A DNA stretch of 64,000 bases from positions 2,232,001-2,296,000 of the forward strand of contig NZ_CP019791.1 of assembly GCF_002007645.1 (NCBI RefSeq), written 5' to 3'. Source of the DNA: Anaerohalosphaera lusitana. GTDB taxonomy: Bacteria > Planctomycetota > Phycisphaerae > Sedimentisphaerales > Anaerohalosphaeraceae. Of the stretch, positions 17,702 to 58,499 are shown piece by piece. The notes under the pieces were generated by a model. That model was given only the letters and a program-made list of their open reading frames with translations, did not search any database and had not been told where the DNA came from. Every line of letters begins with the position of its first letter. The stretch's first letter is position 1. Made by a program: the position numbers and the translations under genes.

Positions 17702-20700
17702 ATGGAACGGGCATTTAATAAATGGTGTGTGGCGGTTTTAGTTTTATCTGCTTCATCGGTTGCGTTTTCCGCTCCTTCGACCTTGACCCAAATGGTTTCA
17801 GACGGTTCAGAGACCATTACGCTTCAGATGACCTTAGAAAGTGTTCGGGGGAGCTATTTCGAGGTATTGGCGCAGAACAGTTCGGGCAATTACGACATTC
17901 ATACACCTGCGGAAGTGCGTACCTATATTGGTACTGTGGATGAATACCCCGGTGCCATTGCAGCGGGCCTTTTAAAATCTGACGGCAATCTCTGGGCAAG
18001 AGTTTATTTTGACAGAGGTTATACCTGGTATACATTGGGAAGCTCCGTGGTCGGTGGATCGGGTGGTGATACTCCGATATTTGTGATGCCAACGCTCAGT
18101 ACCGTAACTCCGGGACATGCGGGCACAGACACCTATCTCTTCGATCTGGGGATTGATTGTGACTGGCGTTTTTACAGTGGGGTCGGTAACAGCAATGTCG
18201 CCACATGCCTGGAACAGGTTGAGTTTTCAACCGTTCAGCTCAAGGCTATCTATCTTAGAGACGCTCTGATTATTCCGGCGCTTGGACGCGTCATTATTCG
18301 CGCTTCTCAAGCACACTGTCCATATGACGGTACAAGTGGCACAGCTATCCTTGGCCTCGTTCAAGCGGAATGGAACAATAACCATCATGTCATTCGCGAT
18401 CTCGTTGCCTGCGTCACTCCAGCAATCGGAGGAGGTGTAGCCTGGGGTGGACAACAAGTGGGTACTGCTTGGGGTTATACCGTCAATGGGATAAATACAT
18501 GGGATGGCAGTTTTGATGGTGTCATGCGTCATGAGATTGGACACAACTGGGACGTTGATGATTACCATGCCGACAGCCCTGAATACGGCACAATTAATTG
18601 CGGCAACGGTTACGGACGTTTTTCCGGTCCCGAGGTCGAAACAATCTTTAATACGCGTGATGCTAGAATGTCGGTTCTTGACAATCAGGGAACGTACAGC
18701 ACGGTACCTGTCCCTCCTTATGCTGCATTAGACTCTCATGATTGTTATAACCGGGAAGATTATACGTTCGCGCCTTTGTACAACGACTTTGATGCCAATG
18801 GGGAAACTATAAGCCTACATTCGTTTGATCCGGTTTCAAAATTTGGCGGCAGTATCACATTATCTGCGGGAACCGGGCCCGACGGCCTTGATGAGCTGAT
18901 ATACAGTCCCCCGCAGACCGCGAGCGGAATCGATCACTTCTATTACACGATCATCGATTCGGCCGGATCGACCGCCACAGGTGTATTTCTCGCTAGACTG
19001 CCTGATTTAGAACCGTTTGAACTGTATGTTGCCAACAGCGACTTTGAGGCTGGAGGATGGGCTTCCGAATATGGCACTTCGCCTTCCGGCTGGGTTAGCG
19101 ATCCTCCACTAAGTGGTGATCGCAGAGGCAACTATGGCGAATCGCTGGATGGCATTGAGGGAATTGTCGCCGCTCTTCAGGATGCTGGCGGCAATTACTA
19201 CCAGCAGTCACTATTATATGCTGGAAAAGGTCCGATTGACGCAGGGTCAAGTGGCCGCTTTGATATTACGTTTGATTACGGTTACCGCAGAGATGCTACG
19301 ACGAATGGAGATATCAAATTACGAGTGGGTCTTTGGAACAAGACAACTTCAACTGAACTGGCTGGTTACGACCTTGTGATCGGTGATCCAGGTGTAGGAG
19401 CCAATTCCCTTAGCAGAACCACTGTCAATTTGTCTTACGATAATACCGGCCTTAACGGCGACGAACTTGCCCTTAGATTTACGCACACCGGCGATGGCTC
19501 CAGAAGCTGGTCTGCAACGGCACTAATCGACAACGTCGACATTGTTATGCCTGGATCGCCGCAATGGCTTGTTGACCCGGTCAAAGAAAGTAACGGCATC
19601 GTAAACCAGGCATATTGGTCAACAGTGTCAAATGATGCGGTTGACCCTGAAAAGGACTCATTGACATTTATAAAGGTCTCAGGTCCTTCATGGCTCACAA
19701 TCGCCTCTAATGGGGCGCTTAGCGGAACACCCGATGCAAGCGATGTTGGTTTGAATGTCTGGACTGTTGAGGTCACAGATGGGACGAATCCGCCAGTGTC
19801 CGCAACACTGAAGATTACTGTTGATTATGAGGTCTTTCTTGCAAACAAAGGTTTTGAATATAACACGTGGGACTCCAATTATGGAACTTCTCCACAAGGA
19901 TGGCTCAGCGATCCCCCGCTTAGCGGAAACCGCGCAGGTAATTACGGTGAAACGATTATTGGCCTCCCTGGAACGGTTGCCGCTCTTCAGGATGCGGGCG
20001 CAAATTACTACCAGCAGGCACTTACTAATTCCAGCCAAGGTAACCTTGATGCCGGTACATCCAGCAAATACGCTGTTACATTCGACTATGGTTACCGCAG
20101 AGATGTAACGACTAACGGAGATATAGTTTTGAGAGTGGCTCTTTGGGATACGACTGCTTCAACTGAACTGGCTGGTTCTGACCTGATTATTATTGATCCG
20201 GGCCCGGGTGCTAATTTCCTCAGCAGGGCAACTGTCAATCTTTCATATGACAACACAGGCCTCGAAGGCCATGGACTTGCGGTACGCTTTACTTACGCAG
20301 ACAAGGGATACAGAGGCTGGTCAGCGACAGCATTGCTTAACAATGTTACTGTTGGAATTCCTGACTTCACACCGCCCGAAGCCCCCACGGGTCTTTTAAC
20401 TGTGACAAGCGGCGGAACTGTCAGCCTTGACTGGAATGACAGCAACGCGGATGGCGTGGCCGCTTTCAATATTTATCGCAGTGAGTTGCAGGACGGATTA
20501 TTTGCAAAAATTGCCGCAGCTCCCGTAAGTTATTATGAAGACAGCGGTCTTATAGAAGGCAAGACATACTTCTATTATGTAACCGCTTTGGATAAATCTT
20601 ACAACGAATCCGCCGAATCGAACAAGGCCTACGCCAGCCTTCGCACACCAGGTGACCTCGACGGAGACGGACGTGTTGACTTTGCCGACCTCAGTCTATT

Positions 20701-20818
20701 CGCCGGCAACTGGCTTGCAACCGATTGCTGGTACTGCGATGGCGCCGACCTCGACAGTAACGGGCGGGTAGACTTCGATGATCTGACAATACTGGCCGAA
20801 AACTGGCTGAGTGAATAA
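17702..20818 (+). CDS. Secreted metzincin-like metalloprotease with binding modules and dockerin-like tail
   Basis: This 1038-residue protein has a signal peptide (to about residue 25), a prodomain-like region and a zincin domain with H277-E-I-G-H281-N-W-D-V-D-D287. This fits the metzincin HExxHxxGxxH/D frame, with D287 as the possible third zinc ligand and D284 where glycine is expected. A cadherin/Ig-like part (about 340-435) leads to two NGDF modules (about 438-620, 715-895) separated by a putative-Ig domain, then Fn3 (about 900-985) and paired dockerin-like EF-hands (LDGDGRVDFADLSLFAGNWL). It probably digests proteins or glycoproteins outside the cell. ATG 17702 is preferred over GTG 17687. 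Confidence 0.75.
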   Translation: MERAFNKWCVAVLVLSASSVAFSAPSTLTQMVSDGSETITLQMTLESVRGSYFEVLAQNSSGNYDIHTPAEVRTYIGTVDEYPGAIAAGLLKSDGNLWARVYFDRGYTWYTLGSSVVGGSGGDTPIFVMPTLSTVTPGHAGTDTYLFDLGIDCDWRFYSGVGNSNVATCLEQVEFSTVQLKAIYLRDALIIPALGRVIIRASQAHCPYDGTSGTAILGLVQAEWNNNHHVIRDLVACVTPAIGGGVAWGGQQVGTAWGYTVNGINTWDGSFDGVMRHEIGHNWDVDDYHADSPEYGTINCGNGYGRFSGPEVETIFNTRDARMSVLDNQGTYSTVPVPPYAALDSHDCYNREDYTFAPLYNDFDANGETISLHSFDPVSKFGGSITLSAGTGPDGLDELIYSPPQTASGIDHFYYTIIDSAGSTATGVFLARLPDLEPFELYVANSDFEAGGWASEYGTSPSGWVSDPPLSGDRRGNYGESLDGIEGIVAALQDAGGNYYQQSLLYAGKGPIDAGSSGRFDITFDYGYRRDATTNGDIKLRVGLWNKTTSTELAGYDLVIGDPGVGANSLSRTTVNLSYDNTGLNGDELALRFTHTGDGSRSWSATALIDNVDIVMPGSPQWLVDPVKESNGIVNQAYWSTVSNDAVDPEKDSLTFIKVSGPSWLTIASNGALSGTPDASDVGLNVWTVEVTDGTNPPVSATLKITVDYEVFLANKGFEYNTWDSNYGTSPQGWLSDPPLSGNRAGNYGETIIGLPGTVAALQDAGANYYQQALTNSSQGNLDAGTSSKYAVTFDYGYRRDVTTNGDIVLRVALWDTTASTELAGSDLIIIDPGPGANFLSRATVNLSYDNTGLEGHGLAVRFTYADKGYRGWSATALLNNVTVGIPDFTPPEAPTGLLTVTSGGTVSLDWNDSNADGVAAFNIYRSELQDGLFAKIAAAPVSYYEDSGLIEGKTYFYYVTALDKSYNESAESNKAYASLRTPGDLDGDGRVDFADLSLFAGNWLATDCWYCDGADLDSNGRVDFDDLTILAENWLSE

Positions 20819-20840
20819 AGCTTACAAGTAAAGTAAGCTT
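20818..20840 (+). terminator. Hairpin overlapping the metalloprotease stop codon
   Basis: AAGCTTAC and GTAAGCTT pair perfectly around a 7-base loop, starting in the TAA stop codon. No T-run follows, so it may be a weak terminator or mRNA 3' structure. Confidence 0.4.
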
Positions 20841-21172
20841 CTTATACTGCGGGCACCATTCCAAAGGTGAATACTCTATCAGGCCCGGACGCTACCGTTG
20901 TGTCCATCGCGCATACGGACACAACAGGAGGATTTTGTGAAAGCGGGCTCGGAGGGACACTCGCGAGAATATGAAATATTAGCGCGAAAGGTAGCGGCCA
21001 TTGATAAAGAAGGTGGAGAACAGAATCTTGCATCAATGCTTTTTTTATAAGCAATTGGGCAGGTTCAAATTCGGTTAGATATACCTGCAGCAGGTTATAT
21101 GTGCGCTGTTGCAGGCTAATACAAAGTGATTCATTATCATAGGGGGATGACACATTTGCAGGAGAGACCATT
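20841..21172. other. Intergenic region between tandem proteases, with inverted repeat
   Basis: The stretch contains a perfect 9-bp inverted repeat, GTTGTGTCC (20897-20905) and GGACACAAC (20917-20925), 11 bases apart. It could be an operator or an RNA hairpin. A 38-codon frame (GTG 20937, AGGAGG upstream) ends at 21053 and matches nothing I recognise. Short coding-like stretches in other frames suggest decayed gene DNA. Confidence 0.35.
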
Positions 21173-24100
21173 ATGAAACACACTATTAATCATAAGTTCG
21201 CTATGGTTTTAGTTTTATTAGCTTCGTCTTTTGCGTTTTCCGCACCTGCAACCTTGACCCAAACGGTTTCTGACGGTTCAGAAACCATTACGCTTAGGAT
21301 GACTTTAGAGAGTGTACGGGGCTCCTATTTTGAGGTCCTGATGCAGAACAGTTCTGGCACTTACGATATTCATACACCTGCCGAAGTGAGTACATACCTG
21401 GGCACGGTAGATGAGTACCCCGGTGCAATTGCTGCGGGCCTGTTGAAATCTGACGGCAGTCTCTGGGCAAGAGTTTATTTTGACAGAGGTTATACCTGGT
21501 ATACATTGGGAAGCTCTAAGGTTGGGGAATCAGGGGCTGATACTCCAATATTTGCGATGCCAACGCTCAGTACTGTGACGCCTGGACATGCGGGCACTGA
21601 CACCTATCTGTTTGATCTTGGAATTGATTGTGACTGGCGTTTTTACAGTGGTGTCGGAAACAGCAATGTAGCCACGTGTCTTGAACAGGTTGAATTTTCA
21701 ACCGTGCAGCTCAAGGCTATCTACCTCAGAGACGCCCTCATTATTCCGGAGCTTGGACGTGTAATCATTCGAGCTTCTCAAGCACACTGTCCATATGACG
21801 GTACAAGCGGCACCGCGATTCTTGGTCTCGTTCAAACGGAATGGGAAACAAACCATACAGACGCAAATCGCGATCTCGTCGCCTGTGCCACCCCAGATAT
21901 AGGAGGAGGTGTTGCCTGGGGCGGACAACAAGTGGGTACTTCCCACGGTTATTCCGTCAATGGGATAAATACATGGGATGGGAGTTTTGATGGTGTTATG
22001 CGCCATGAGATTGGACACAACTGGGACGTTGATGATTATCATGCCGGCAGCCCTGAATACGGTACAATAAACTGCGGCAATGGCTATTCACGTTTTTCCG
22101 GTCCTGAGGTCGAAACAATCCTTAATACGCGTGATGCAAAAATGTCAGTCCTGGACAACCAGGGAACGTATAGTACAATTGCTGTCCCCCCGTATGCTGC
22201 ATTGGACTCTCACGATTGTTATAAACGGCAAGATTACACCTTCGCGCCACTGCATAATGACTTTGATGCCAACGGAGAAACGATAAGCCTGCTTTCGTTT
22301 GATTCGACTTCAAAATTTGGCGGCAGTATTACATTATCTGCCGGCACCGGTCCAGGCGGCATTGATGAGCTGATCTACAGTCCCCCGCAGACCGCGAGCG
22401 GAATCGACCATTTCTATTACACGATAATCGATTCGGCCGGATCGACCGCGACAGGCGTGTTTCTCGCTAAACTGCCTGATTTGGAACCGTTTGAACTGTA
22501 TGTTGCTAACAGCGACTTTGAGGCTGGAGGATGGGCTTCCGAATATGGCACTTCGCCTTCCGGCTGGGTTAGCGATCCTCCTTTGACAGGTTCAGGTGCA
22601 GGCAACTATGGACAGACGATGCCGGATTTGACAGGAATTCAGGCCGCATTGCAGGATGTAGGAGGCAATTACTATCAACAGGTAATTGATTATAGCGGTG
22701 CCGGAGCAGTTGACGCGGGCACAGAAGATGAATATGCGGTAACTTTTGACTATGGTTATCGAAGAGATGCAACGACCAACGGCGATATCACTTTAAGAGT
22801 CGCACTTTGGGATACAACGGCATCGACCGAACTGGTTGGCTACGATTTGGTCATCACAGATCCAGGCGTTGGAATAAATTCATTGAGCACTACGACGATC
22901 AACCTAGCCTATGACAATACTGCTCTTAGTGGTCATGAACTGGCTGTCCGCTTTACACACGCTGGAAACGGCACCAGAACCTGGTCTGCGACGGCCTTAA
23001 TTGATAACGTCAGTATTGTCAGCCCTGGCCAGCCAGGCTGGTACACGGATCCTGTTGTTGAAGTAGGAGCGCTGGACAATACAGCTTACAGCTCTTCATT
23101 GGCCGATGATGCTGCTGACCCTGAAAACGACCCATTGACATTTACAAAGGTTACAGGTCCTGCATGGCTGACAGTCGCGTCTAATGGAGACCTTAGCGGA
23201 ACACCCAGTGCAAGCGATATCGGTTTGAATGTCTGGACGGTTGAGGTTACCGATGGCACCAATCCTCCTGTTCCTGCAGAACTGCATATTACAGTCAGCT
23301 ACAAGGTGACTGTTTTAAACGGTGGTTTTGAAAGCAATACATGGTATTCAGAACAGGGCACCTCACCTGCAAACTGGATAAGTGATCCCCCGTTGAGCGG
23401 TTCAGTCTCTGGCAATTATGGCCAGAGCATGCCTGATTTGACAGGTATCCAGGCCGCACTTCAGGATGTTGGCGGCAATTACTATCAACAGGGCCTCACA
23501 GATTCCAGCTTGGGCACGATCGATGCTGGTTTTGCAGGTGAATATACAGTAACCTTTGATTACGGCTACCGACGCGATGCGGTAACAAATGGTGAAATAC
23601 CGTTGAGAGTGGCGCTTTGGGATACGACCACATCCACTGAACTGGCCGCATCGAAAGTATATATAAGTGATCCCGGTGTAGGTACCAATTCTCTCACGCG
23701 AACTTCGCTAAATCTGTCATACGACAACACCGGACTTAGTGGCGATGGGTTGGCGGTGAGAATTACATACGCTGACAGCGGTTACCGAACCTACTATGCC
23801 ACGGCACTTATCGACAATGTTGCTGTCGGGATTACAATCGATGACACAACGCCCCCGGCCGCTCCGACAGGTTTGACAGCGACACCGGGCGATGCAACTG
23901 TGACCCTTGACTGGGACGACAACAGCGAGACCGATTTGGCCAGTTACAATGTCTATCGCAGCACAACCAGCGGCACCGGATATGCCATTTTAGCCCAAGG
24001 TTTGCCCACCAGCGATTACACGGATAACTCGGTCTCAAACGGAACGACTTACTACTATGTTGCGACAGCAGTAGATACCAGCAATAATAAGTCGGCCTAC

Positions 24101-24445
24101 TCAAGTCAAGTCTCAGCGACACCTCAAGCACAGCAGACAACGATGTACGTGCAGGCGATTGATCTGACTGTTGTTCAAGCTGGCGGTCCAAACCATAAAG
24201 GTCAAGCCATAGTGACAATTTACGACAATAATGCTCAGCCGCTCAGTGGAGCGACGGTCTATGGCACATTCACCGGCGACTACAACGAATCTGGTTCGAC
24301 CGTGACTGATAGCAATGGCCAGGCAATGATGACCACTTCATCCAAAGCCAGAAATCCCAGCTTCACGTTCACGGTAGACGACGTGACAGCATCGGGATAC
24401 ACCTATGATGCTGCTTCAAATGTTCAAACCAGTGAGACTTACTAA
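21173..24445 (+). CDS. Second tandem metzincin-like metalloprotease, Ig-like C-terminus
   Basis: This 1090-residue paralogue of the preceding protein keeps the same order: signal peptide (to FAFSAPA), prodomain-like region, zincin domain with H278-E-I-G-H282 and the same NWDVDD continuation, cadherin/Ig-like part, NGDF module, putative-Ig domain, NGDF module and Fn3 domain. It has no dockerin-like tail. The last 100 residues form a bacterial Ig-like domain (VTIYDNNAQPLSGATVYGTF). It was therefore duplicated and then had its C-terminus exchanged. AGGAG lies 8-10 bases before the ATG. Regions such as 22480-22580 are almost identical to 19015-19105, pointing to gene conversion. Confidence 0.75.
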   Translation: MKHTINHKFAMVLVLLASSFAFSAPATLTQTVSDGSETITLRMTLESVRGSYFEVLMQNSSGTYDIHTPAEVSTYLGTVDEYPGAIAAGLLKSDGSLWARVYFDRGYTWYTLGSSKVGESGADTPIFAMPTLSTVTPGHAGTDTYLFDLGIDCDWRFYSGVGNSNVATCLEQVEFSTVQLKAIYLRDALIIPELGRVIIRASQAHCPYDGTSGTAILGLVQTEWETNHTDANRDLVACATPDIGGGVAWGGQQVGTSHGYSVNGINTWDGSFDGVMRHEIGHNWDVDDYHAGSPEYGTINCGNGYSRFSGPEVETILNTRDAKMSVLDNQGTYSTIAVPPYAALDSHDCYKRQDYTFAPLHNDFDANGETISLLSFDSTSKFGGSITLSAGTGPGGIDELIYSPPQTASGIDHFYYTIIDSAGSTATGVFLAKLPDLEPFELYVANSDFEAGGWASEYGTSPSGWVSDPPLTGSGAGNYGQTMPDLTGIQAALQDVGGNYYQQVIDYSGAGAVDAGTEDEYAVTFDYGYRRDATTNGDITLRVALWDTTASTELVGYDLVITDPGVGINSLSTTTINLAYDNTALSGHELAVRFTHAGNGTRTWSATALIDNVSIVSPGQPGWYTDPVVEVGALDNTAYSSSLADDAADPENDPLTFTKVTGPAWLTVASNGDLSGTPSASDIGLNVWTVEVTDGTNPPVPAELHITVSYKVTVLNGGFESNTWYSEQGTSPANWISDPPLSGSVSGNYGQSMPDLTGIQAALQDVGGNYYQQGLTDSSLGTIDAGFAGEYTVTFDYGYRRDAVTNGEIPLRVALWDTTTSTELAASKVYISDPGVGTNSLTRTSLNLSYDNTGLSGDGLAVRITYADSGYRTYYATALIDNVAVGITIDDTTPPAAPTGLTATPGDATVTLDWDDNSETDLASYNVYRSTTSGTGYAILAQGLPTSDYTDNSVSNGTTYYYVATAVDTSNNKSAYSSQVSATPQAQQTTMYVQAIDLTVVQAGGPNHKGQAIVTIYDNNAQPLSGATVYGTFTGDYNESGSTVTDSNGQAMMTTSSKARNPSFTFTVDDVTASGYTYDAASNVQTSETY

Positions 24446-24471
24446 ACCTAATTGCAGTTAGTTAATTACTG

Positions 24472-24505
24472 GGTGGGCCGGTTTCGCAATCGGCCCACCT
24501 CTTAC
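24472..24505 (+). terminator. Rho-independent-type hairpin after second protease
   Basis: A 9-bp perfect stem (GGTGGGCCG / CGGCCCACC) with a 10-base loop is followed by TCTTACTATT. It closes the tandem protease region before the transposase remnant. Confidence 0.7.
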
Positions 24506-24673
24506 TATTGTTGATTGGAAAATATGTTTAAAATGGTTGCTAAACTAATCTTCAGCAAGTACTTTGTGAAGCCATGTTTTGCCATCTGTGAACACTGTTC
24601 TTTTGGGATTTGGACCATACTGTGCCGTAAGCTTAGTGAAAATCAACAACGAACAGAAAGGAAGGACCTTAAG

Positions 24674-25096
24674 ATGCAAAAGAATGAATCGACAAACAAC
24701 GAGCAGAACTTGAATGGCGTTATTATAATCAATCGCACTCAGATCAAGGATTACCTCGGCGGCATGGTCCGCCAGAACGTCGAAGAAACGCTCAACGCCA
24801 TGCTGGATGCAGAGGCGGATCAGTTGTGCAACGCCAGGCGGTATGAACACACCGACAAGCGTACCGACGCTAGATCCGGCCATTACAAACGCAAGCTGCA
24901 GACCCGCACCGGCCAGGTGGAACTGAAGATGCCCAAGCTTCGAAAGACCACATTTGAAACGGCCATAATCGAACGCTGGCAGATCGAGCTGTTCTTTAAG
25001 ACGATCAAGCAGAATTTCAAGATAAAGACTTTCGTCGGTGACCTGCCCCCATGGGGGCACCCCCAGAGAACATTAACTCGTGCAAAGGTAGCCTAA
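24674..25096 (+). pseudogene. Chimeric transposase remnant (IS256-type front, IS4-type tail)
   Basis: The frame starts MQKNESTNNEQ after GGAAGGACCTTAAG. Residues about 20-95 match the N-terminus of IS256-family (mutator) transposases: MVRQNVEETLNAMLDAEADQL, then RTDARSGHYKRKLQTRTGQV. The sequence then jumps directly to RWQIELFFKTIKQNFKIKTF, the C-terminal signature of IS4-type transposases. Neither catalytic core is complete, so the product cannot transpose. The downstream 16-bp palindrome TGCCCCCATGGGGGCA (25044-25059) lies inside the tail. It marks a site of past insertion and recombination between the two halves of the window. Confidence 0.75.
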
Positions 25097-25243
25097 CTGA
25101 AGGGAAGAAATAATTGTCGTTGAAGGGAATTAATAGTTGACGCTGGACACTTTCTGCAAAAACTGTAAGATCGTCATCAAATCGATTACAATCCCAACCT
25201 TCGCGGTTCTGGTAAAAAGTAATCGGCCGTATTCATTTTCCGG
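25097..25243. other. Non-coding tail of the IS remnant
   Basis: No gene is visible. The stretch may include an old element end, but no matching inverted repeat was found upstream. Confidence 0.3.
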
Positions 25244-25417
25244 CTAAAATGACAGCAAAACATGCCATACATATGTATAAGCAAGTTGGTCTACTTCCTG
25301 CCACGTCTTTTTCAATACTTCTTCATCGCCAACGATTTTCGGATACTCCTGACGTTTGACTTCCCACGGAATGCACTCGCCCGGTTTCGGGACTATCTTC
25401 TTTTGTTCCTGGTCCAT
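25244..25417 (-). CDS. Small 57-residue hypothetical protein coupled to UroD-like gene
   Basis: The ATG overlaps the stop codon of the upstream UroD-like gene by one base (TAATG), the usual arrangement for translational coupling. The product starts MDQEQKKIVPKPGEC, is charged, and contains a tryptophan-rich helical part (EEVLKKTWQEVDQLAYTYVW). No signal peptide or membrane helix is visible. I do not recognise the family. A longer frame starting at 25552 overlaps the UroD-like gene in another frame and is not supported. It may be a small partner of the UroD-like protein, or simply the last gene of the operon. Confidence 0.5.
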   Translation of the reverse strand: MDQEQKKIVPKPGECIPWEVKRQEYPKIVGDEEVLKKTWQEVDQLAYTYVWHVLLSF

Positions 25418-31447: not shown

Positions 31448-31449
31448 AA

Positions 31450-48133: not shown

Positions 48134-51100
48134 ATGAATCGTATGGTTTTGTTTTTTCTGATTATCGGTTTTGCAGGTGTCGTTCACGCTGATGAGTTTA
48201 ATGTTGCTCAGGCGAAATGGGGAGCATCCGCAACCGCCAGCAGTATTTATGGACAGGGGTATGCTGCTGACAATGCGGTTGATGGAAAATGGTCAGCTCG
48301 AGAGACGGACAAATGGAACTCAGCCGCCGGGGACGGGCCTCACTGGCTGTGCGTCGATCTGGGCACAGAGCGGGTGGTGCACAAGATAGTGATAAGGCAT
48401 GAAGGGGTACTCGCTGAAGGTGAAAAATATAATACGGCTGCATTCAGATTGCAGAAGGGGGAGTCGGATCAGGGGCCGTGGGTTGATCTGATCGAGCCTG
48501 TTCGGGGGAACAAGAGCAATATTACGACACATGTATTCGATCCTGTAAAGACACGTTTTGTTCGTCTGTTCATTCAAAAGGCAGAGCAGAAGGGCAACAC
48601 ATACGGCCGTGTTTTCGAGATTGAAGTCTATTCCTCCACCAAAGACATTACCGAATACATGCTCAGCATGAGTTTCCCCGAAAGGAAATTTCGCAGGCAG
48701 AATGGTGATTTTCTGGTAAAAGCTGAATGTGAAGTCGTCCGACCCGCATCAGCTCAAGAGTTTGCAACTGTTAAATTGCGTTCTAATGGCAAGGATCTGG
48801 GCCATCTGTCTGTAAATACGGGAGCGGCAACCGATATTTATGTTCCTGCAAAGGCAGCGCCTTGCGAAGTGCAGTTGGTCGGCGTCTATGAGTCCGGCAC
48901 AGAAGAGGTGCTTGCAAGTCAGAAGATAAATCCGCCTGTACCAACTTACTTTGATAACGGCGGAACTATTCACGTTGTTTCTTCCAGCCATCAGGATATC
49001 GCCTGGATGGATAGCCCGCAATTCTGCCGCGAGTGGCGGGATGAAAATAACATGACTCCTGCTCTTGAAATGATGCAGAAAGATGAAGACTATCGTTTCA
49101 CCGTCGAGTCCATGATGTACCTTATGGATGAATTGGAAGATCATCCTGAGAGAAGAGAACTGGTGCACAAGCTTACAAAGAACGGTCAGTTGGAATGGGG
49201 CGCGACTTATACCCAGCCGTACGAGTCAAGCATTTCCGGTGAGCAGATGATCAGGGGAATGTATCTCGGGCGAAAATGGTTCCGCAAGACTTTCCCGGAT
49301 TGTGATGCTGTGGTTGCATGGAATCCTGATGTCCCAGGCAGGTCCATGCAAATGCCCCAGATTATGCATAAGGCCGGGATCAAGTATCTGATGTTCAGCA
49401 GGCATGAAAAAGGGTTGTACGAGTGGCTGAGTCCTGATGGGACAGGGGTAATTGCTTTCTCACCGGGTCATTACGGCGACGATCATTTTAAAATCTTCAC
49501 CGCCGATTCTAAAACGGCAATCTCAAGAATAAACCAGCAACTTACAGAAGATGGGGAATACTTTGACAAAAGGAATATCGATCCTGAGTACTGTCTTCTG
49601 AACTCGGTTGATTTTTCCGAGCCGACTGATTTCAGCCAAATTATGCAGATGTTTAATGACCAGGCCGCAGATAGGTTTGAGACTAATGGCGACGAGTCAA
49701 TTGCTGCTAAAATGAAATATTCAGGTGCGACCGAGTTCTTCGAAAAGGTTACAAAGAACAATCCGGATCTGAAAGTAATTACAGGTGAACGCCCCAATGT
49801 CTGGCTATACATTCATGGTCCCGCGCATCACAAGGCGCTTTCAGCCGGGCGGGCGGCGGGCAGGGTTCTGCCTGCAGCGGAGATGTTTTCCACGATCGAG
49901 TGTCTGCTCGATGGTGATTTCGAAGATTACCCCGAGCAGGAGTTCTTCGATGCATGGAAGGCTGCATGCTTCCCTGACCATGGATGGGGCGGCAACAAGG
50001 GTAAGATCACGGATGCACTGTTTAAGGAGAAGCTGGAATATGCTCGCGACAAAGGGCAGGCGATACTTGATCGGACTACAAGGAAAATAGCGTCCCATGT
50101 CAAGACTGATGAGACCAGGGGCAAGCCCCTTGTCGTATTCAACAGTTTGTCATGGAAACGCAGTGACATCGTCAAGACAAAGATAGACGGTCTGGCAGAG
50201 GATATTCGTATTGTTGATGCGGACGGCAAGAGTGTGCCGCATCAGATGCTGCCGTGCGATGAGTATGGAAAGAGTGAAATTATGTTTGCGGCAGAAGATG
50301 TCCCTTCGCTTGGCTACAGCACCTACTATATCGCTGTGGGAAAGGAAGAGTTTGCGACGGACGCAGTTGCATCTGAGGGCACGTTTGAAAACGCATTCTA
50401 TAAGGGACAGCTAAGTTCGGGCGGTATTAAAAATATCTATGACAAGGAGCTGGGGCGGGACGTTCTCCAGTCCGAAAAGTTCCTGGCTGGCGAAGTGTTT
50501 ACCATGCAGTCCGTTGGTAATGGTGCCGGTGAATTCACTGAAGTTCAGCAGCCCACGATGGAAGGTTTTGACAAGTCCAGCAATCATGGATCAAAATGGA
50601 CGCTGATTGAGGCTGAGTCCGGCCCGGTTCAAACAGTTTATGAGTCAGAACAGAAGTTCAGTCACTGCACCGTCCGGCAAAGGATCATCTTTTATAATCC
50701 GGTTAAGCGGATTGATTTTGAGGTTTCGCTGCTTGGTTGGGATGGTACCAAATCGCGCGAATTCAGAATGGCTTTACCGGTCGATATGAAAGACGGTAAG
50801 GTCGCCTACGAAGTGCCGATGGGTGTTCTGGAAGTCGGTAAGGATGAGATCGAAGGAGCAGCAGGAGGCCATGGCGGCGGCGGGTATTATACCCAGGTGT
50901 GTAAAGATGTACGTCCCCGTGAGGTGCAGAATTTCATAACCGCCAACGATCAGAATTTCGGCGTGACTATGAGCTCTTCTGTTGCAGTTTGCGACTGGGT
51001 GGATCCCACAGATGATCCGGGAGATTATCCCATACTGCAGCCGATTCTTCTTGCGTCAAGAAAAAGCTGCCACTGGCTCGGTCCCTGGTACTTGCAAGAA

Positions 51101-51502
51101 GGAGATCATCATTACCGATTTTCCGTGCTGTCGCATGAGGCTGGCTGGGAAAACGGTTATCGTTTTGGCATTGCAGCAAACACACCTTTGCACGTAGTAG
51201 CTGCCAAACCGAGGCCGAATGCAAATCTGCCGGAAGAGAAAAGCTTCTTTGCGGTTTCTGCGCCTAATGTTCAAGTCAGTACGATCAAAAAATGTGACGA
51301 TGACGATAGCGTGGTTGTCAGACTTTACGACATCGAAGGTAAAGACAGTAATATGACTTTGAACACTTTCTTTGAGATTGCAGGGGCCGAACATACCAAC
51401 ATCATTGAGGAAGAAGGAACGCCTGTTCCGGCAGCAGGGAAGATGTTCGAGAGCCGTATTGGAGATCATGCAATAGAAACATTCAAGTTTTTACCAGAAT
51501 AG
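48134..51502 (+). CDS. GH38 alpha-mannosidase with discoidin domain
   Basis: This 1122-residue secreted enzyme has a signal peptide (MNRMVLFFLIIGFAGVVHA), an F5/8-type C domain (residues about 20-175) and a GH38 body. Zinc ligands are H286 and D288 (SSHQDIAWMD) and the nucleophile is D399 (WNPDVPGRSMQM). It differs from the two minus-strand paralogues by Q287 in place of asparagine, which may mark another linkage preference. AAGGAGTGAATA precedes the ATG. A decayed copy of its first 50 codons lies at 62018-62180. Confidence 0.87.
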   Translation: MNRMVLFFLIIGFAGVVHADEFNVAQAKWGASATASSIYGQGYAADNAVDGKWSARETDKWNSAAGDGPHWLCVDLGTERVVHKIVIRHEGVLAEGEKYNTAAFRLQKGESDQGPWVDLIEPVRGNKSNITTHVFDPVKTRFVRLFIQKAEQKGNTYGRVFEIEVYSSTKDITEYMLSMSFPERKFRRQNGDFLVKAECEVVRPASAQEFATVKLRSNGKDLGHLSVNTGAATDIYVPAKAAPCEVQLVGVYESGTEEVLASQKINPPVPTYFDNGGTIHVVSSSHQDIAWMDSPQFCREWRDENNMTPALEMMQKDEDYRFTVESMMYLMDELEDHPERRELVHKLTKNGQLEWGATYTQPYESSISGEQMIRGMYLGRKWFRKTFPDCDAVVAWNPDVPGRSMQMPQIMHKAGIKYLMFSRHEKGLYEWLSPDGTGVIAFSPGHYGDDHFKIFTADSKTAISRINQQLTEDGEYFDKRNIDPEYCLLNSVDFSEPTDFSQIMQMFNDQAADRFETNGDESIAAKMKYSGATEFFEKVTKNNPDLKVITGERPNVWLYIHGPAHHKALSAGRAAGRVLPAAEMFSTIECLLDGDFEDYPEQEFFDAWKAACFPDHGWGGNKGKITDALFKEKLEYARDKGQAILDRTTRKIASHVKTDETRGKPLVVFNSLSWKRSDIVKTKIDGLAEDIRIVDADGKSVPHQMLPCDEYGKSEIMFAAEDVPSLGYSTYYIAVGKEEFATDAVASEGTFENAFYKGQLSSGGIKNIYDKELGRDVLQSEKFLAGEVFTMQSVGNGAGEFTEVQQPTMEGFDKSSNHGSKWTLIEAESGPVQTVYESEQKFSHCTVRQRIIFYNPVKRIDFEVSLLGWDGTKSREFRMALPVDMKDGKVAYEVPMGVLEVGKDEIEGAAGGHGGGGYYTQVCKDVRPREVQNFITANDQNFGVTMSSSVAVCDWVDPTDDPGDYPILQPILLASRKSCHWLGPWYLQEGDHHYRFSVLSHEAGWENGYRFGIAANTPLHVVAAKPRPNANLPEEKSFFAVSAPNVQVSTIKKCDDDDSVVVRLYDIEGKDSNMTLNTFFEIAGAEHTNIIEEEGTPVPAAGKMFESRIGDHAIETFKFLPE

Positions 51503-51712
51503 AAACGGCTGGTAAGCATCTTCCGACAGCGATAAGGATGCTGCTATTAAATAACTACACAAATGCTAATGTAAATTAGTCATGCTAAGTATAAGCCGAT
51601 TACAGAGTTTGCTCGCGTTCCAGTTTAACATTGCTGGTCCGGTAAACAGGAAGCAGTTTTGTTACAGCTTCTATCAAATTTTATAGAAATCACAACTGAA
51701 GGAGATGGTTCT

Positions 51713-52741
51713 TTGAACGGTAAAGAAAGAATTGAGAAAGTTTTGCAGGGCCAATGGCCCGACCAACGGCCGGTGATGATTCACAACTTTATGATGGCAA
51801 GTCGGGAAGCGGGTATTAGTATGGCGGAATACCGTTCCGACCCTAAAAAAATCGCACAGGTACATATTCAGGCCGTTGAAAAATATAAACTGGACGGCGT
51901 TTTTCTTGACATTGACACCTGTACAACTGCGGGGGCTCTCGGTGTCCCTGTTGTTTTGCCTGAGAATGAGACTGCTCGCACAACAGGGTCACATCCTGAT
52001 CTTACTTCTTTAGATGCTGTAGCTGATCTGCCTGCTCCTGATATAGCAAATGATGAGCGGGTTCAGATCTGGGTCGAAGCGTGCCGGTTGCTGAAGGAGT
52101 ATTTCGGGGATGAGATTCTGGTTCGAGGTAACTGCGACCAGTTGCCGTTTTCCGTTGCTAGTATGCTTCGGGGCATGACCGAATGGATGATGGATCTGAT
52201 GAACCCTGAAAGCCAGGAGAAGGTTTTTCAGTTATTAGATTATTGTACCATAGCCTGTGAGCAGTTTGTTCGTCTAATGGCCGACGCTGGCGCACACTTG
52301 CTGTCTCATGGCGATAGCCCGGCAGGCCCGGATATGATTTCACCTGACATGTATGTCAAATATGCTATGCCTTATGAAAAAAAGATTATCGATTTAGTTC
52401 ATAAGCTCAATAAATATTACTTGCTGCATATTTGCGGAGACACGAGCGCTATTCTAAAAGATATGGTGGCAACGGGTGCGGATGCCCTTGAAATTGATTA
52501 TAAAACTGATGTTAATCTAATGCACCAGGTTTGCGGAGATTGTATTACGATCAGCGGCAATCTGAATCCTGCGGGCGCTTTGTTGAGTGCGGGACCTGAT
52601 GGTGTCGCCCAAGAAGTCCGCGACCTTTTAAATATTTATAACGATTCACCTCGCCTGATTGTATGTTCAGGCTGTGTATTGTCACCGGAAACGCCTGCCG
52701 AAAATATTGATGCTTTTGTAAAGACGGTTAGATCATCATAG
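51713..52741 (+). CDS. UroD-like protein with intact MtaA/CmuA-type zinc motif
   Basis: This 342-residue protein begins MNGKERIEKVLQGQWPDQRP at TTG 51713, which has AAGGAGATGG just upstream. The longer frame from 51659 adds 18 residues without a ribosome site. It keeps the zinc site of corrinoid-dependent methyltransferases: H239-I-C241-G and, near the C-terminus, C318-S-G-C321 in the typical SGCVLSPETPAENIDAF. MtaA, MtbA and CmuA use this to activate a thiol for methyl transfer. It is the only one of four UroD-like proteins here with the full motif. It sits 13 bases before an epimerase gene. A methyl-transfer role is likely, but no corrinoid protein gene is in the window. Confidence 0.8.
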   Translation: MNGKERIEKVLQGQWPDQRPVMIHNFMMASREAGISMAEYRSDPKKIAQVHIQAVEKYKLDGVFLDIDTCTTAGALGVPVVLPENETARTTGSHPDLTSLDAVADLPAPDIANDERVQIWVEACRLLKEYFGDEILVRGNCDQLPFSVASMLRGMTEWMMDLMNPESQEKVFQLLDYCTIACEQFVRLMADAGAHLLSHGDSPAGPDMISPDMYVKYAMPYEKKIIDLVHKLNKYYLLHICGDTSAILKDMVATGADALEIDYKTDVNLMHQVCGDCITISGNLNPAGALLSAGPDGVAQEVRDLLNIYNDSPRLIVCSGCVLSPETPAENIDAFVKTVRSS

Positions 52742-52754
52742 GAGATATACCAGA

Positions 52755-54038
52755 ATGGAAATTATTAAACAGTTTAAAAAGTACCGTGAAATATTTGAAA
52801 AGGAACTAACGGGAAATATCTTAAAATTCTGGAACAGTCATATTGTAGATGATACCAATGGAGGCTTCTTTGGGGCTTTGGATAGAGAAGGCCGCCCGGA
52901 TCTTACTGCACCAAAGGGATGTGTATTAAATACACGACTTCTATGGACTTATTCCGCGTGTGCCCGGTTGCTGAATGATGAACAATGTCACAAATTAGCA
53001 AAACGAGCTTATGAAACCATTCTTTGCCATTTTGAAGATTTAATCCATGGTGGTTTCTACATGGAACTTGATGCTGCGAACCGCCCATTGAATACGGTTA
53101 AGCACACCTATGCTCAAGCATTTGCCCTGTATTCTCTTTGTGAGTATTACCGGCTAACGGGTTCAAGTGAGGTTTTGAAAAAAGTTCAGTCGTTTTTTTA
53201 TTTTCTTGAAAACAAAACAAAGGATCCGAATGGGCCAGGTTATCTCGAAAGTTTTACTCGTAATTGGGAATGCATTGAAGAAAACCGTATGGCTGATGGA
53301 AATGAACCGAAATCTATGAATACTCACCTGCACGTTCTGGAGGCTTATGCAGCGGTGGTTAGGGTCTGGAACGATCCGGTACCGAGAGAGCGACTTAGAG
53401 AGTTGCTTACGATCTTCAGTGATTATATAATCCGTCCAGATGGCCATTTTGGGATTTTCTTTGAGAAAGATTTGTCGGAAAGCTCAAAATCTAATGGGAT
53501 CATATCATTTGGTCATGATATTGAGGGATCTTGGTTGCTATGGGAGGCAGTTGAGATTCTGCAAGACGAGTCATTATTAGATAAGTGGCGTTCGATTGTA
53601 ACGAAAATGGCACGGGCGACTGAGCGTGTCGGTCTGGATGTCGAGGGCGGGATGTTTCTTGAGAGTTACCGATACGGCAGTCATGTCCGGACAAATATGC
53701 ATTGGTGGATTCAGGCAGAAGCGCTGGTCGGGTTTATGAATGCTTATCAGTTAACAGGTGATGAGCATTACTGGGAGAATGTAAAGCTCTCGTGGTCATT
53801 TATTGATAAGTACGTAATTGATCATGAGTATGGCGAATGGTTTACAAAAGTAAATCGTTTAGGCAAGCCGTTTTTGGAAGAACCAGTTGATGATCCTTCA
53901 CCCTATTACCGTAATGATCGCAAGGCGGATCTATGGAAATGCCCTTATCACAACAGCAGGGCATGTTTGGAGATGGTGAGCAGGATCGATGCGACTCTGG
54001 AAAGTGTTGAGGAAACAGTTAAAAATATTTCCGTATAA
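52755..54038 (+). CDS. AGE-family sugar 2-epimerase (cellobiose/mannobiose 2-epimerase-like)
   Basis: This 427-residue protein is an (alpha/alpha)6 barrel of the N-acylglucosamine 2-epimerase family. Landmarks are GGFFGALDREGRP, NTHLHVLEAYA, FGHDIEGSWLLWEA (H254), RTNMHWWIQAEALVGF and CPYHNSRACLEM (H399). Two histidines serve as acid and base in the family. The NMHWWIQAE and FGHDIEGSW motifs favour the disaccharide (cellobiose/mannobiose) 2-epimerase branch. In this context it may convert a mannose-ended product such as Man-GlcNAc or mannobiose, which is inference. There is no signal peptide, so it is cytoplasmic. Confidence 0.85.
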   Translation: MEIIKQFKKYREIFEKELTGNILKFWNSHIVDDTNGGFFGALDREGRPDLTAPKGCVLNTRLLWTYSACARLLNDEQCHKLAKRAYETILCHFEDLIHGGFYMELDAANRPLNTVKHTYAQAFALYSLCEYYRLTGSSEVLKKVQSFFYFLENKTKDPNGPGYLESFTRNWECIEENRMADGNEPKSMNTHLHVLEAYAAVVRVWNDPVPRERLRELLTIFSDYIIRPDGHFGIFFEKDLSESSKSNGIISFGHDIEGSWLLWEAVEILQDESLLDKWRSIVTKMARATERVGLDVEGGMFLESYRYGSHVRTNMHWWIQAEALVGFMNAYQLTGDEHYWENVKLSWSFIDKYVIDHEYGEWFTKVNRLGKPFLEEPVDDPSPYYRNDRKADLWKCPYHNSRACLEMVSRIDATLESVEETVKNISV

Positions 54039-54242
54039 AAATCGATACTGTTTCAGGGCTGGTTTTGCCTTGCCGGCGAACATTTCTATCGCTTTGGCAA
54101 GACTTAAATTAGCAATTGTAGTTATGGCCGATTTCACAGGCCGCCGAACGAGAAAAGAGCCCAAAGCAGATCTGAGTTTAAATAGGCATCTGGCTGTAAA
54201 AGCATCAAATAACGTAGTTGACGCCAGTATCAAGGAGATGTT

Positions 54243-57200
54243 ATGTGCATCACTAGCAAAAGTGGTCAGATGATAACTGAACTACATTTTTTTAAAATGG
54301 TGATAGTAACATCTGTTCTTGTAACGGGAGCAACGGTTTGTGCTGCCGTTCCGATGAATTTAACACGCATTGTCAATGGACAATTTACTCTGCGGCTGAC
54401 AAAGATGAATTTCCGGGGCCCGCATTTTGAGGTGCTGGTTCAGAATGAAACTGGTGGTTATGATACCTTTGATCCGGGTGAGGTGCGGACGTTCATCGGT
54501 ACCGTGGACGAGGACCCGGCAGCCGTTGCAGTTGGTTATTTGCGTTCTGACGGTGTTCTGTTGTCGGGTGTTTTTGGGTATCGTGGAACGTTTACCATAT
54601 TTGAAGGTGACACCGCAATCTATGCAAGAGGATGGAACAGTGGGACGACGTTCAAAATGCCAACTCAACCGACTGTTACGCCGGGCCATGGCGGAACGAC
54701 AATGTATGAGTGGGGCATTGGTTATGACGTCGATAATGATGGCTATGTCCATAAATACGGTTCGAACACTGCCTATGCGGTGGAGCGGATAGAATTTATG
54801 AATGTCTGCCTGGCAGCGAATTTCATGCAAAACGTGTTACTTAAACCGATGGTTGAGCGTGTTATTATTCGTGCATCGCAATCGCATTGTCCCTATCACG
54901 GCATCGGTGGAACCGCGCTTATAAGCCCACTTTCAAACGAGTGGCAAACAAACCAGTCTGATGCGATGGACTATTGCTTTAAAATCTCTTTATGTACTCC
55001 GAATATCGGCGGAGGTGTGGCTTATATGAATGGCGCGTTTAATGTGAATGGCATATACGAAGGGAACTTGTCATATGGAATAGCTCGTCATGAGTTGGGT
55101 CATAACTGGGGTGTTAACGATTATGAAGCTGGGAGTCCGGAAGGTCAGACTATCAATTGCGGCAATGCTTATGCCTGGTGGTGCGGCCCGGGGATTCAGG
55201 ACATTCTGAATCACCGAGACTTAAATTTAATTGGTTCGGGATACGAAACTAATGTCGGAACTTTCGACACAGTCAATATTCCTCCATACCCCAGTCTTGA
55301 TGCCATCGAGATATTTCCTGGCACAACTTCTGTGGTGATCGATGTGATGTGTAACGATCATGATGTCAATGGGGATGTGTTGACTCTTTATTCGTTTGAG
55401 GATATGTCCACCAAAGGCGCTGCCGTGACACAAACGGGCAGCGGCTCAAACGCACGTCTGGTTTATGAGGTGTCCCTCAAATCGGGTACGGATTCATTTT
55501 TCTATACAGTAGAGGACAGTAGCGGCCAAAGGGCAACAGGAGTGGTGGTTCTGGATCATCGGCCAAGTTTTTCAGTGGCCCCGGCTGACGCTTTCCATAC
55601 CGTTAGCGATTTTGAACAAGGCAGTTCCAGTAGCCGGAATTATACGCTCACCAATAATTTGGGCTCATCGTTCAACTGGGTAGCGTCACATAATGCAACC
55701 TGGTACGATCTTTCGAGTTATGGCGGAACTCTTTCCGGTAATGCCTCGTTTAACGTCAATGTGAAATTGAATGCTGAGACGAAAAGCCTGGCTCCAGGAT
55801 ACCACGAGGATACGATAATCTTTACTGATACTGCCAATAATTTTACCATAAATCGCACGGTGTCCCTGGACGTGAAGCAACCGTTAGTCGTTCAACTGGA
55901 TGCACCGGAAGTGATAGGCTATTCTTCGGAATATCCTGGCGGTGGTTATGCTCCGGGCAAAGCTGTCGATAATACCCAACTCGACTGGGCCACCAATGGT
56001 GACCGTCATAACGGATGGATTGCGTTTGACTTTGGTAAACCGGTAACAATTGATGCAGTTCTGTTTCAGGACCGTTCAGATGGGTCGACGCTTCAGTTCA
56101 GTCTGACCTTCAGTGATGACGCCATTTTTGGTGACGCGGAAGATACAACGATTATTCTCAATTCAGGCGGTATGGCGGGCAAACTCTATAATATTGCCTC
56201 GCAGACTGCACGCTATGTACGCTATGATGTGGTACAATACGATGGCGACATTAACACCGGGATCACCGAGATTTCTTTTTATCGTCGTGTAGCCGAATCG
56301 CCCAGATCGATTACAGGCATTAGCATTACTGCGGCAGCTTCTTCAGAAATTTCTTCTCCGCAAAATGCAACAAACGGTAACGGCTTAAGCGGATGGTTGC
56401 ATGACAATAATCCTAATGGAGAGACGATGTGGGTCGGGACCAACCCGTTTGGCGGCAGCAGCAATCCCAATCCGGGCACCGAACTGGGCGCCGAGTGGAT
56501 TAAATTCGAGTTTGACCGCATTTACAACCTTACCGACATGCTGGTGTGGAATTATAATCAGGCAAACGCATCTGCTGGATATCCGGCCCTGACGGACCGA
56601 GGAATGGCAGAGGTTTATGTTGAATACAGCGTTGACGGGGTTAATTATACGAATCTTTTTGGTGATGGTAATACCACGACCTTAAAGCGGGCGACCAGCA
56701 TTGACGGTACTCCGCCAACCGATCAGCTTGATTTTGGCGGTGTTCAGGTCAAATACGTTGTTATTACCGCGGCTTCATCGAATCCCAATTACGGCGGCGA
56801 TCTGATCGGGTTGAGTGAGGCTCGTTTTGGTCTTGGCGGCGGACCGCTTTGCTTACAGGTGCCTTATCCGACGGTACAGGATTATTCCTCTGAATATCCT
56901 GGCGGCAGTTATGCTCCCAGCAATTCGATCGATTACAGTCAATCAGACTGGTCCAGCAATGGCCAGGGTTCCGAGGCTTGGATATCTTTTGATTTCGGTT
57001 CGCAGGTAATAACGGACTCAGTCCTTTTTCAGGATCGCACTAATGGCTCTACACTTGAGTTCAGTCTCACCTTCAGTGACGACACGATCTTTGGTGACAC
57101 GGGTGATACAACAATGACCTTTTATAATACCGGTGGAACAAATTCAAATCTCTATCGCTTTGGCCCTCAGACGGCTCGCTATGTGCGTTATGATGTCGTA

Positions 57201-58499
57201 CAGTCCAGGTCCACAGATTTAAACACAGGCATTGCCGAAATTGCTTTTTATAAAACTCTGAATCTTTCTTCTGACCCAATTTCAAGTGTGACTGCCACAG
57301 CCTCGTCAGAATACGACCATGCTTTCGCGACTAACACCGTGAACAGTACTGGCCTTTCAGGTTCCCTGCACAGCAATGCTTATACTGACATGTGGTTGGG
57401 AGATGGTACCTTGGCCGGCGTTGGCACTCATGAAGGAGGTGCAGAGTGGATCAAGTTCGACTTGAAAGAGGTCTATGTGCTTGACGAGTGTGTAATCTGG
57501 AACTACAACCAAAATGGCTTTACCGCTCGTGGCATGAATGAGGTACTGGTTAAAACATCGACTGATGGTGTGAATTATACAAATCTGTTCGGGGGCGAAT
57601 CTACGACCCATTTACATCGTGCCACCGGTTGTAAAGGTACACCGCCGACCGATGTGATCAACTTTGATGGTACTTTGGCGCGTTATGTCTTGATCATTGC
57701 CTCCGCCGCGAATCCGAACTTCCCGGAGGGCGATCAAAATCTCATCGGTTTGAGCAATGTTCATTTCACGGGTACGCCAACCGGTTGTCAGACGCACTAC
57801 ATTGCAGATTTTGATTTTGATGGCGATGTTGACTTGTCCGACCTGAACACTTTTGCCGCAGAATATCTGAACGCAGTGACATATACCGAATCAGCCGGAC
57901 ATGTGGTAATGGAGGCCGAGCATTTCACCACGAACACTCCCGGCAGCGGTTCTATGGCTGGCAGCGACTGGGTACCTTTTGATGAAAATGAGTCTTCGGA
58001 CGGTTTTATGCAGGCCCTGCCCGATCAGTCCCGCAGTATCGATGCTCAGATAAACCAGTATTCGCCGCAGCTACGTTACCGGATTGATTTCGAGACGGCT
58101 GGCGAATATTATATTTGGGTCAAAGCCAAGGCCGCTGATATAGCATCTGACAGTATACATTATGGATTGGACGGAGTCTGTGCAAGCTCCGGTGCCTCAT
58201 CGGCTCTGCGTGTACTTCGAGGCGGCAGTTTCAATTGGATTTCGCAAAAAGGTAGCGGGGAACGACCAAAGATAGCGGTTGAAACAGCGGGCGTGCATAA
58301 TTTTGATCTCTGGATGCGGGAAGATGGTGCGACTCTGGACCGTGTGCTCCTGACGACAGACGTTAATTACGACCCAACCATCAGCGGAGAACCGGCCGAA
58401 AGTGCTCTTACGGATTTAATTGCCGATCTTAACAATGACGGCACTGTAGACTTACTCGATTTTAGTATTCTTGCAAGATATTGGTTGGTGGGAATGTAA
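54243..58499 (+). CDS. Secreted metzincin-like protease with discoidin-like repeats and split dockerin-like/CBM tail
   Basis: This 1418-residue protein is the third member of the protease family. The zinc motif is canonical: H283-E-L-G-H287-N-W-G290-V-N-D293, a metzincin HExxHxxGxxD site. After an Ig/cadherin-like domain (about 345-440) comes a BACON-like domain (about 443-545). A tandemly duplicated unit of about 310 residues follows (about 558-865, 875-1180), each unit holding two discoidin-like folds (WIAFDFGKPV, RYVRYDVVQ, EYSVDGVNYTNLF). The tail is EF-hand, CBM-like domain, EF-hand, shared with the GH18 protein. AAGGAG lies 5 bases before the ATG. It probably attacks surface-bound glycoproteins. 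Confidence 0.75.
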   Translation: MCITSKSGQMITELHFFKMVIVTSVLVTGATVCAAVPMNLTRIVNGQFTLRLTKMNFRGPHFEVLVQNETGGYDTFDPGEVRTFIGTVDEDPAAVAVGYLRSDGVLLSGVFGYRGTFTIFEGDTAIYARGWNSGTTFKMPTQPTVTPGHGGTTMYEWGIGYDVDNDGYVHKYGSNTAYAVERIEFMNVCLAANFMQNVLLKPMVERVIIRASQSHCPYHGIGGTALISPLSNEWQTNQSDAMDYCFKISLCTPNIGGGVAYMNGAFNVNGIYEGNLSYGIARHELGHNWGVNDYEAGSPEGQTINCGNAYAWWCGPGIQDILNHRDLNLIGSGYETNVGTFDTVNIPPYPSLDAIEIFPGTTSVVIDVMCNDHDVNGDVLTLYSFEDMSTKGAAVTQTGSGSNARLVYEVSLKSGTDSFFYTVEDSSGQRATGVVVLDHRPSFSVAPADAFHTVSDFEQGSSSSRNYTLTNNLGSSFNWVASHNATWYDLSSYGGTLSGNASFNVNVKLNAETKSLAPGYHEDTIIFTDTANNFTINRTVSLDVKQPLVVQLDAPEVIGYSSEYPGGGYAPGKAVDNTQLDWATNGDRHNGWIAFDFGKPVTIDAVLFQDRSDGSTLQFSLTFSDDAIFGDAEDTTIILNSGGMAGKLYNIASQTARYVRYDVVQYDGDINTGITEISFYRRVAESPRSITGISITAAASSEISSPQNATNGNGLSGWLHDNNPNGETMWVGTNPFGGSSNPNPGTELGAEWIKFEFDRIYNLTDMLVWNYNQANASAGYPALTDRGMAEVYVEYSVDGVNYTNLFGDGNTTTLKRATSIDGTPPTDQLDFGGVQVKYVVITAASSNPNYGGDLIGLSEARFGLGGGPLCLQVPYPTVQDYSSEYPGGSYAPSNSIDYSQSDWSSNGQGSEAWISFDFGSQVITDSVLFQDRTNGSTLEFSLTFSDDTIFGDTGDTTMTFYNTGGTNSNLYRFGPQTARYVRYDVVQSRSTDLNTGIAEIAFYKTLNLSSDPISSVTATASSEYDHAFATNTVNSTGLSGSLHSNAYTDMWLGDGTLAGVGTHEGGAEWIKFDLKEVYVLDECVIWNYNQNGFTARGMNEVLVKTSTDGVNYTNLFGGESTTHLHRATGCKGTPPTDVINFDGTLARYVLIIASAANPNFPEGDQNLIGLSNVHFTGTPTGCQTHYIADFDFDGDVDLSDLNTFAAEYLNAVTYTESAGHVVMEAEHFTTNTPGSGSMAGSDWVPFDENESSDGFMQALPDQSRSIDAQINQYSPQLRYRIDFETAGEYYIWVKAKAADIASDSIHYGLDGVCASSGASSALRVLRGGSFNWISQKGSGERPKIAVETAGVHNFDLWMREDGATLDRVLLTTDVNYDPTISGEPAESALTDLIADLNNDGTVDLLDFSILARYWLVGM
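57807..58484 (+). repeat. 678-bp module, copy 2 (plus strand)
   Basis: This is the inverted partner of 31471-32148, of equal length, with few substitutions and no indels. It encodes the split dockerin-like/CBM tail of the third protease. Confidence 0.9.

Follow-up and report, generated by a model that had tools for sequence, protein, structure and literature searches.

The methionine of the Met-turn, the residue that names the metzincin clan, has been called invariant in all metzincins (PMC1266349). In the same report, the M226N variant of Erwinia chrysanthemi protease C is described as insufficiently stable to be isolated, and MMP-2 as tolerating Leu or Ser in place of this methionine (PMC1266349). 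The Acel_2062 family (provisional M94 minizincins) is described as having HExxHxxGxxD and no Met-turn methionine; its members are small and presumably intracellular, and the Met-turn segment itself is absent (PMC3890501). A 64,000-nucleotide stretch of Anaerohalosphaera lusitana DNA (NZ_CP019791.1, positions 2,232,001 to 2,296,000 of the forward strand; hereafter the window, with positions counted from its first letter) encodes three putative secreted metalloproteases: protease 1 (17702..20818, 1038 aa), its tandem paralogue protease 2 (21173..24445, 1090 aa) and protease 3 (54243..58499, 1418 aa). All three genes, and all parts of them located below, lie on the + strand. Like the Acel_2062 family, these proteins lack the Met-turn methionine, but here the segment is kept and the residue alone is changed: as judged by alignment, the methionine appears to be replaced by asparagine in all three. 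This asparagine is an unusual feature that was overlooked in an initial annotation of the window, made from the letters and their open reading frames (ORFs).

The residue at the Met-turn column is N299 in protease 1 (18596..18598, codon AAT), N300 in protease 2 (22070..22072, AAC) and N305 in protease 3 (55155..55157, AAT), each within TINCGN. The CGN after the zinc site, which the initial annotation had pointed out, is present in all three. That annotation had proposed a three-member family; a profile search instead found 15 paralogues in the 4.25-Mb genome, all of which were read, and the column is Asn in seven of them and Met in eight by alignment. The Asn members align without a gap with paralogues having TIMCGN or TLMCGN, and in the ungapped alignment A1 (12 of the 15 paralogues) T275 and G279-N280 are invariant around N or M at position 277. 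When an Asn-only set, A6 (9 rows), is compared through hhalign with a set of Met-type sequences having His as the third zinc ligand, A5 (10 rows), INC comes to lie on IMC (99.8%, E 5.5e-30). In A5, I155, M156 and C157 are invariant; its profile matches acutolysin-C at 2.9e-18, and the imC of A5 falls on the IM of adamalysin. In profile A2, TINCGN stands opposite TAMGGN of CpaA, an M72 O-glycoprotease of Acinetobacter (PDB 6o38). Taken together, the family aligns with metzincins, and its Asn members depart from them at this residue.

The same column was followed in 86 distinct motif rows. Thirty-two near relatives (13 from the A. lusitana genome) were chosen by a pattern restricting the column to N, M or L; 15 of them carry Asn, 16 Met and one Leu. 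In an unrestricted listing, all 31 rows above 150 bits carry Asn, Met or Leu. HExxH and an Asp or His third ligand are found in 32 of 32, in a scan that required HExxH, so that a relative without it would go uncounted. Asn is not tied to the Asp ligand, because three of the Asn rows have His as the third ligand. Among the remaining 54 motif rows no Asn was noticed at the column; Met lies no more than 20 residues from the zinc motif in 52 (L086 being doubtful by eye), and Leu occupies the column in two. In a 63-row alignment, the 33 rows beyond the near relatives have Met (32) or Leu (one). Outside the A. lusitana genome the Asn type occurs in eight other genomes or metagenome-assembled genomes (MAGs), in one with a broken frame. 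An Asn-type relative in genome G081 is split across three frames of one contig (L027, L040 and L047), reflecting a broken gene or assembly errors. No earlier description of a metzincin family without the methionine was found in the literature searched, in which exceptions published in subscription journals would be missed.

Trees point to repeated switching at this column. The 63-row set excludes rows whose HExxH could not be read, duplicates of identical sequence, and fragments of fewer than 150 residues round the motif (including the broken L027, L040 and L047); its tree has at least 10 changes at the Met column (Met, Asn, Leu), at least two at the third ligand and at least 17 at the zinc-motif Gly position. 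A 30-row tree has at least nine changes at the Met column, and topology tests on it reject a single Asn clade (approximately unbiased test, p-AU 2e-34) and a single Met clade (1e-48). For the tandem pair, a ratio of nonsynonymous to synonymous substitution (dN/dS) of 0.097 at a dS of 0.60 indicates purifying selection, with values of about 0.11 in the pro part and 0.09 in the catalytic part. A second Asn pair gives 0.103 at a dS of 1.5, which is nearly saturated. In 441 tests on 29 rows, no residue tracking Met or Asn survived correction (best outside the column: position 263, p 0.0022), and this screen held just four independent supported pairs.

The zinc motif itself is HEIGHNWDVDD in protease 1 (residues 277-287, 18530..18562; H277, E278, H281) and in protease 2 (residues 278-288, 22004..22036; H278, E279, H282), and HELGHNWGVND in protease 3 (residues 283-293, 55089..55121; H283, H287); a script located these motifs at the genes to which the initial annotation had assigned them. 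Relative to the metzincin motif HExxHxxG/NxxH/D, the H, E, H and final D are found in three of three proteins, while the Gly position holds Gly in one (G290 of protease 3) and Asp in two (D284 of protease 1, D285 of protease 2). When the 30 main ORFs of the window were shuffled 500 times, HExxH occurred 0.54 times on average (maximum 3) and HExxHNxxxxD 0.0 times; the motifs of the three proteases are thus not due to chance. A fourth HExxH in the window (HEYAHREWAGL, ORF at 11315) is without the metzincin pattern. The protein at 54243 had been called canonical, which holds for its HExxHxxGxxD stretch but not for its Met-turn column, where it has the Asn of TINCGN.

The third zinc ligand is likely the final Asp of the motif (D287, D288 and D293, respectively), as had been proposed from the sequence. 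All 12 rows of A1 have this candidate (domain position D265, corresponding to D288 of protease 2), and across the 15 paralogues the aligned ligand is Asp in 13 and His in two. A His two residues past this Asp, favoured by hhalign, was rejected as third ligand since it is not conserved (Glu in P0003, the ORF of protease 3); Asp is preferred because it is invariant while this His varies. The Gly position is G in eight paralogues, S in four, D in two and A in one, and G, S, A, N, D or T in the wider family. Two distant paralogues (L012 12514-17148 and L119 from 954) have a His third ligand together with Met (HEVAHGLGVGH and HEVAHGYGAGH; DTMSG/DTMGG).

Neither Asp makes the family new, contrary to a suggestion of the initial annotation. 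Asp is listed as the third zinc ligand of snapalysins, thuringilysins and igalysins (PMC12237041), a feature that the window proteases probably share; snapalysins are described as keeping Met (PMC3890501), and the igalysin IgAse as having an extra residue before Gly and keeping Met (C-I-M-R) (PMC12237041). In the pappalysin mirolysin, which is classed as a metzincin, Asp231 occupies the Gly position, as in the tandem pair, and contacts the prosegment, but the same report gives this enzyme a cysteine switch, His as third ligand and Met284 as the Met-turn residue (PMC6949598). N is also reported at the Gly position of pappalysins (PMC11674741, PMC3890501). Novelty on either ground is ruled out by these precedents and by the many changes of the Gly column on the 63-row tree.

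The fold was modelled with AlphaFold 2 (AF2) for residues 24-345 of protease 2, covering the pro and catalytic parts (predicted local distance difference test, pLDDT, 84.7; predicted template modelling score, pTM, 0.88). The model has helices at 143-165 and 250-260, the latter bearing HExxH; a metzincin core with a backing helix and an active-site helix is thus predicted, and the sequence context of the Met-turn is present with Asn in place of its methionine. VIA-align matched the model to zymogen ADAM17 (8snl_A) with Z 22.7 over 286 aligned residues (root-mean-square deviation 3.7 Å) and to mature ADAM17 (8snm_B) with Z 17.9 over 184, so that about 100 prodomain residues match too. Four ADAM17 zymogen rows align with this joint model from residue 1 to 308-310, and the 50 rows listed, mainly adamalysins and ADAMs, have Z 17.5-22.7. 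ADAM17 is also the top Foldseek match (3.4e-11). The predicted fold is an adamalysin/reprolysin-like (M12B-type) metzincin fold with an ADAM-type prodomain fold, which agrees with the prodomain-bearing zincins initially proposed. By its profile matches, the family is reprolysin-like as well: of the 15 paralogues, 12 were scanned, and every one of these matches the Pfam models Reprolysin_5 and Reprolysin_3 at E up to 1, with 1.3e-9 as the best value. Full-length window proteases score under the Reprolysin cut-offs; the domain of P0002 (protease 2) alone gives 23.4 bits for Reprolysin_3 (cut-off 22.4) and 24.3 bits for Reprolysin_5 (cut-off 27).

The window proteases resemble adamalysins and ADAMs (M12B; the ADAM17 zymogen and the snake venom P-I metalloproteinases) in the pro and catalytic fold, in HExxHN and in a Met-turn column alignable through Met-type relatives. 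They differ in having Asp rather than His as the likely third ligand, Asn rather than Met, and a prodomain without Cys, and no disintegrin domain is among their Pfam matches. A cysteine switch in the prodomain is typical of M12B adamalysins and ADAMs. No Cys was found before residue 130 (P0001 and P0002) or 154 (P0003) in the numbering of the aligned stretch, and a cysteine switch is unlikely in the three because their prodomain has no Cys; among 12 paralogues checked, only M04 has a prodomain Cys (C105).

As a whole, these data are best explained, at a probability of roughly 0.68, by secreted, prodomain-bearing, reprolysin-like zinc endopeptidases with Asn in the Met-turn, in which Met and Asn have been swapped repeatedly while the catalytic residues were kept. 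Two His and the Asp would bind zinc, the HExxH glutamate would activate water, and in the tandem pair the Asp that stands in for Gly would be a tolerated turn residue. The carboxamide of Asn may swap the hydrophobic floor under the zinc for a hydrogen-bonded polar one, with the Asn members staying active enzymes. It is likely, in our judgement, that these are natural, catalytically competent metzincins with many Met/Asn swaps, for which the clan-naming residue would not be required for clan membership. We infer zinc binding and peptidase activity, as we do the substrate: judging from the modules appended to them and the glycosidases nearby, the proteases may clip glycoproteins, from which the glycosidases would then strip glycans.

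Several points weigh against this explanation. The Met-turn assignment rests on alignments. The A6 profile, searched against PDB, ranks two unrelated Cdc73 chains at the top (E 0.0044 and 0.0046), above metzincins, and its matches to metzincins end before or near the Met column. The alignment underlying the AF2 model had 12 rows, and hhalign aligns the canonical third His, with a gap of 2, with the His that lies two positions beyond the Asp. The count of switches is approximate, as 9 of the 30-row tree's 27 inner branches are open. As to the substrate, glycan genes were not found beside every paralogue among the ORFs tested: some other paralogues of the genome adjoin helicase, FAD-dependent, aminotransferase and phage-portal-like genes, and several ORFs tested there were without a match.

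A tentative and rather doubtful alternative is that the proteins are O-glycoprotein-specific peptidases resembling CpaA and StcE and recognising the glycan directly within the active-site cleft. CpaA, reported to cut P-S/T(glycan) (PMC7542363), is the nearest solved sequence relative of profile A2 (E 1.3e-4) and has RHE.GHN and accessory beta domains in common with the window proteases, but the sequence match is confined to the active-site region (profile positions 222-288), and the Asn-only profile A6 reaches CpaA at just E 0.04. The active site of CpaA is described as holding the tail of its chaperone CpaB (PMC7542363), whereas the window proteases have a prodomain of their own. Peptidase_M66, the MEROPS family of StcE, weakly matches two of 12 paralogues (E 0.0024 at best). 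The gene content of the window speaks for a glycoprotein substrate, with GH89 (NAGLU), GH18, GH109, a GlcNAc 2-epimerase, five GH38 ORFs and a PIG-L match under the cut-off; five of the seven GH38 matches of the genome lie here (26957-63998), as four complete ORFs and a fifth, at 62025, running off the window end. However, no carbohydrate-active enzyme was among the ORFs tested next to the L011 and L012 paralogues.

Twenty larger ORFs were tested near other paralogues, some of which are flanked by sulfatase, rhamnosidase, DUF6259, LamG and CBM96 proteins. With such mixed neighbours, glycoprotein targeting is plausible for the window copies and conjectural for the family; the initially suggested adaptation to glycoproteins is thus made plausible at this locus by the GH89, GH18, GH38 and GH109 neighbours, but not at those paralogues elsewhere whose neighbours are unrelated to glycans.

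It is unlikely that the proteins are ordinary reprolysin-like secreted peptidases whose Met-turn residue drifts neutrally, the Asn being mechanistically unremarkable. The mixture of Met, Asn and one Leu among the 32 near relatives, the A1 invariant columns common to Met and Asn members, and the covariation screen of 441 tests without a corrected signal would all fit drift. More residue types would be expected under drift than the Asn, Met and Leu that alone occur in the 31 rows above 150 bits; the change from Met to Asn takes two base changes (ATG to AAC or AAT), and Asn also occurs alongside a His third ligand in three rows. That the proteins are pseudoproteases, which retain the fold as binding or scaffold proteins with catalysis lost, is very improbable. 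In favour of it, the Asn members have lost a residue described as invariant among metzincins (PMC1266349). Against it, HExxH is kept in 15 of 15 matches of the own genome and, with an Asp or His ligand, throughout the near relatives selected for HExxH, the tandem pair is constrained in its catalytic part (dN/dS about 0.09, next to about 0.11 in the pro part), and human and other ADAM pseudopeptidases are described as losing HExxH residues and typically keeping Met (PMC11266112), the opposite pattern.

Signal-like N-termini, judged by eye, are found on all three window proteases, and their secretion is presumed. Protease 1, which corresponds to P0001 minus its first 5 codons, starts at ATG 17702 with AAGG upstream, and continues from the signal-like N-terminus into an ADAM-like prodomain, the catalytic domain, Big_9 Ig domains and two modules of about 180 aa (19004..19576 and 19823..20365); its C-terminus is dockerin-like, under the Pfam cut-off. 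Protease 2 is 75% identical to protease 1 across its residues 5-983. Its prodomain (21242..21586, all-beta in the model) and catalytic domain (21587..22207), both with approximate limits, are followed by two copies of the same module (22478..23047, predicted with a poor pLDDT of 49.7, and 23306..23842) and a C-terminal Fn3/Ig-like part, where a dockerin match is absent in Pfam. The module also occurs, at 36-40% identity, in a PEP-CTERM protein (8593-9252) and a LamG/Ig protein (9327-11237). Protease 3, with AGGAG upstream of its ATG 54243, has a prodomain, a catalytic domain, Big_9, four stretches of F5/8 type C (the best at 55923..56249), GH115_C and a dockerin-like end under the Pfam cut-off. 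A common prodomain-like start had been proposed for the three; VRGSYFEVL and TVDEYPGAIAAG are exact in the tandem pair only, while protease 3 has FRGPHFEVL and TVDEDPAAVAVG.

A Mutator-family transposase fragment (24515-25096) directly follows the tandem pair. The first part of the ORF at 62025-63998 repeats, in what looks like decayed form, the N-terminus of the GH38 protein encoded at 48134 (FLIIGFAG.VHADEFNV..KW.ASATASSIYG); a different GH38-type gene comes next, and the first part is probably left over from a partial duplication and lies ahead of the true start. At L011, a phage portal-like protein (3065-4612; SPP1_portal, E 2e-15) adjoins three protease paralogues.

Relatives occur across Planctomycetota; among the genomes searched by profile, own genome counted, they were found in 10 of 39 in the family (E <= 1e-10), 14 of 98 in the order (E <= 1e-3), 80 of 397 in the class (E <= 1e-20) and 72 of 392 in the phylum Planctomycetota (E <= 1e-6). 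In the phylum and class searches at most five candidates were scored per genome and the best 30 loci were fetched. The core sequence of L024 is common to L038, whose genome belongs to the same family as that of the window. Two close relatives lie outside Planctomycetota by title, L019 (a 3-kb contig of a MAG titled Desulfobacteraceae) and L020 (a MAG titled Akkermansiaceae), reflecting transfer or bin contamination. A viral or plasmid origin was rejected, zero relatives being found in the viral contigs, phages and plasmids searched.

Motif-based annotation that demands Met or Gly calls for caution in view of these proteins. They bring candidate peptidases into a glycan-degrading locus of a planctomycete, and the Asn and Met versions in one genome would serve as natural test cases for the role of the Met-turn methionine.

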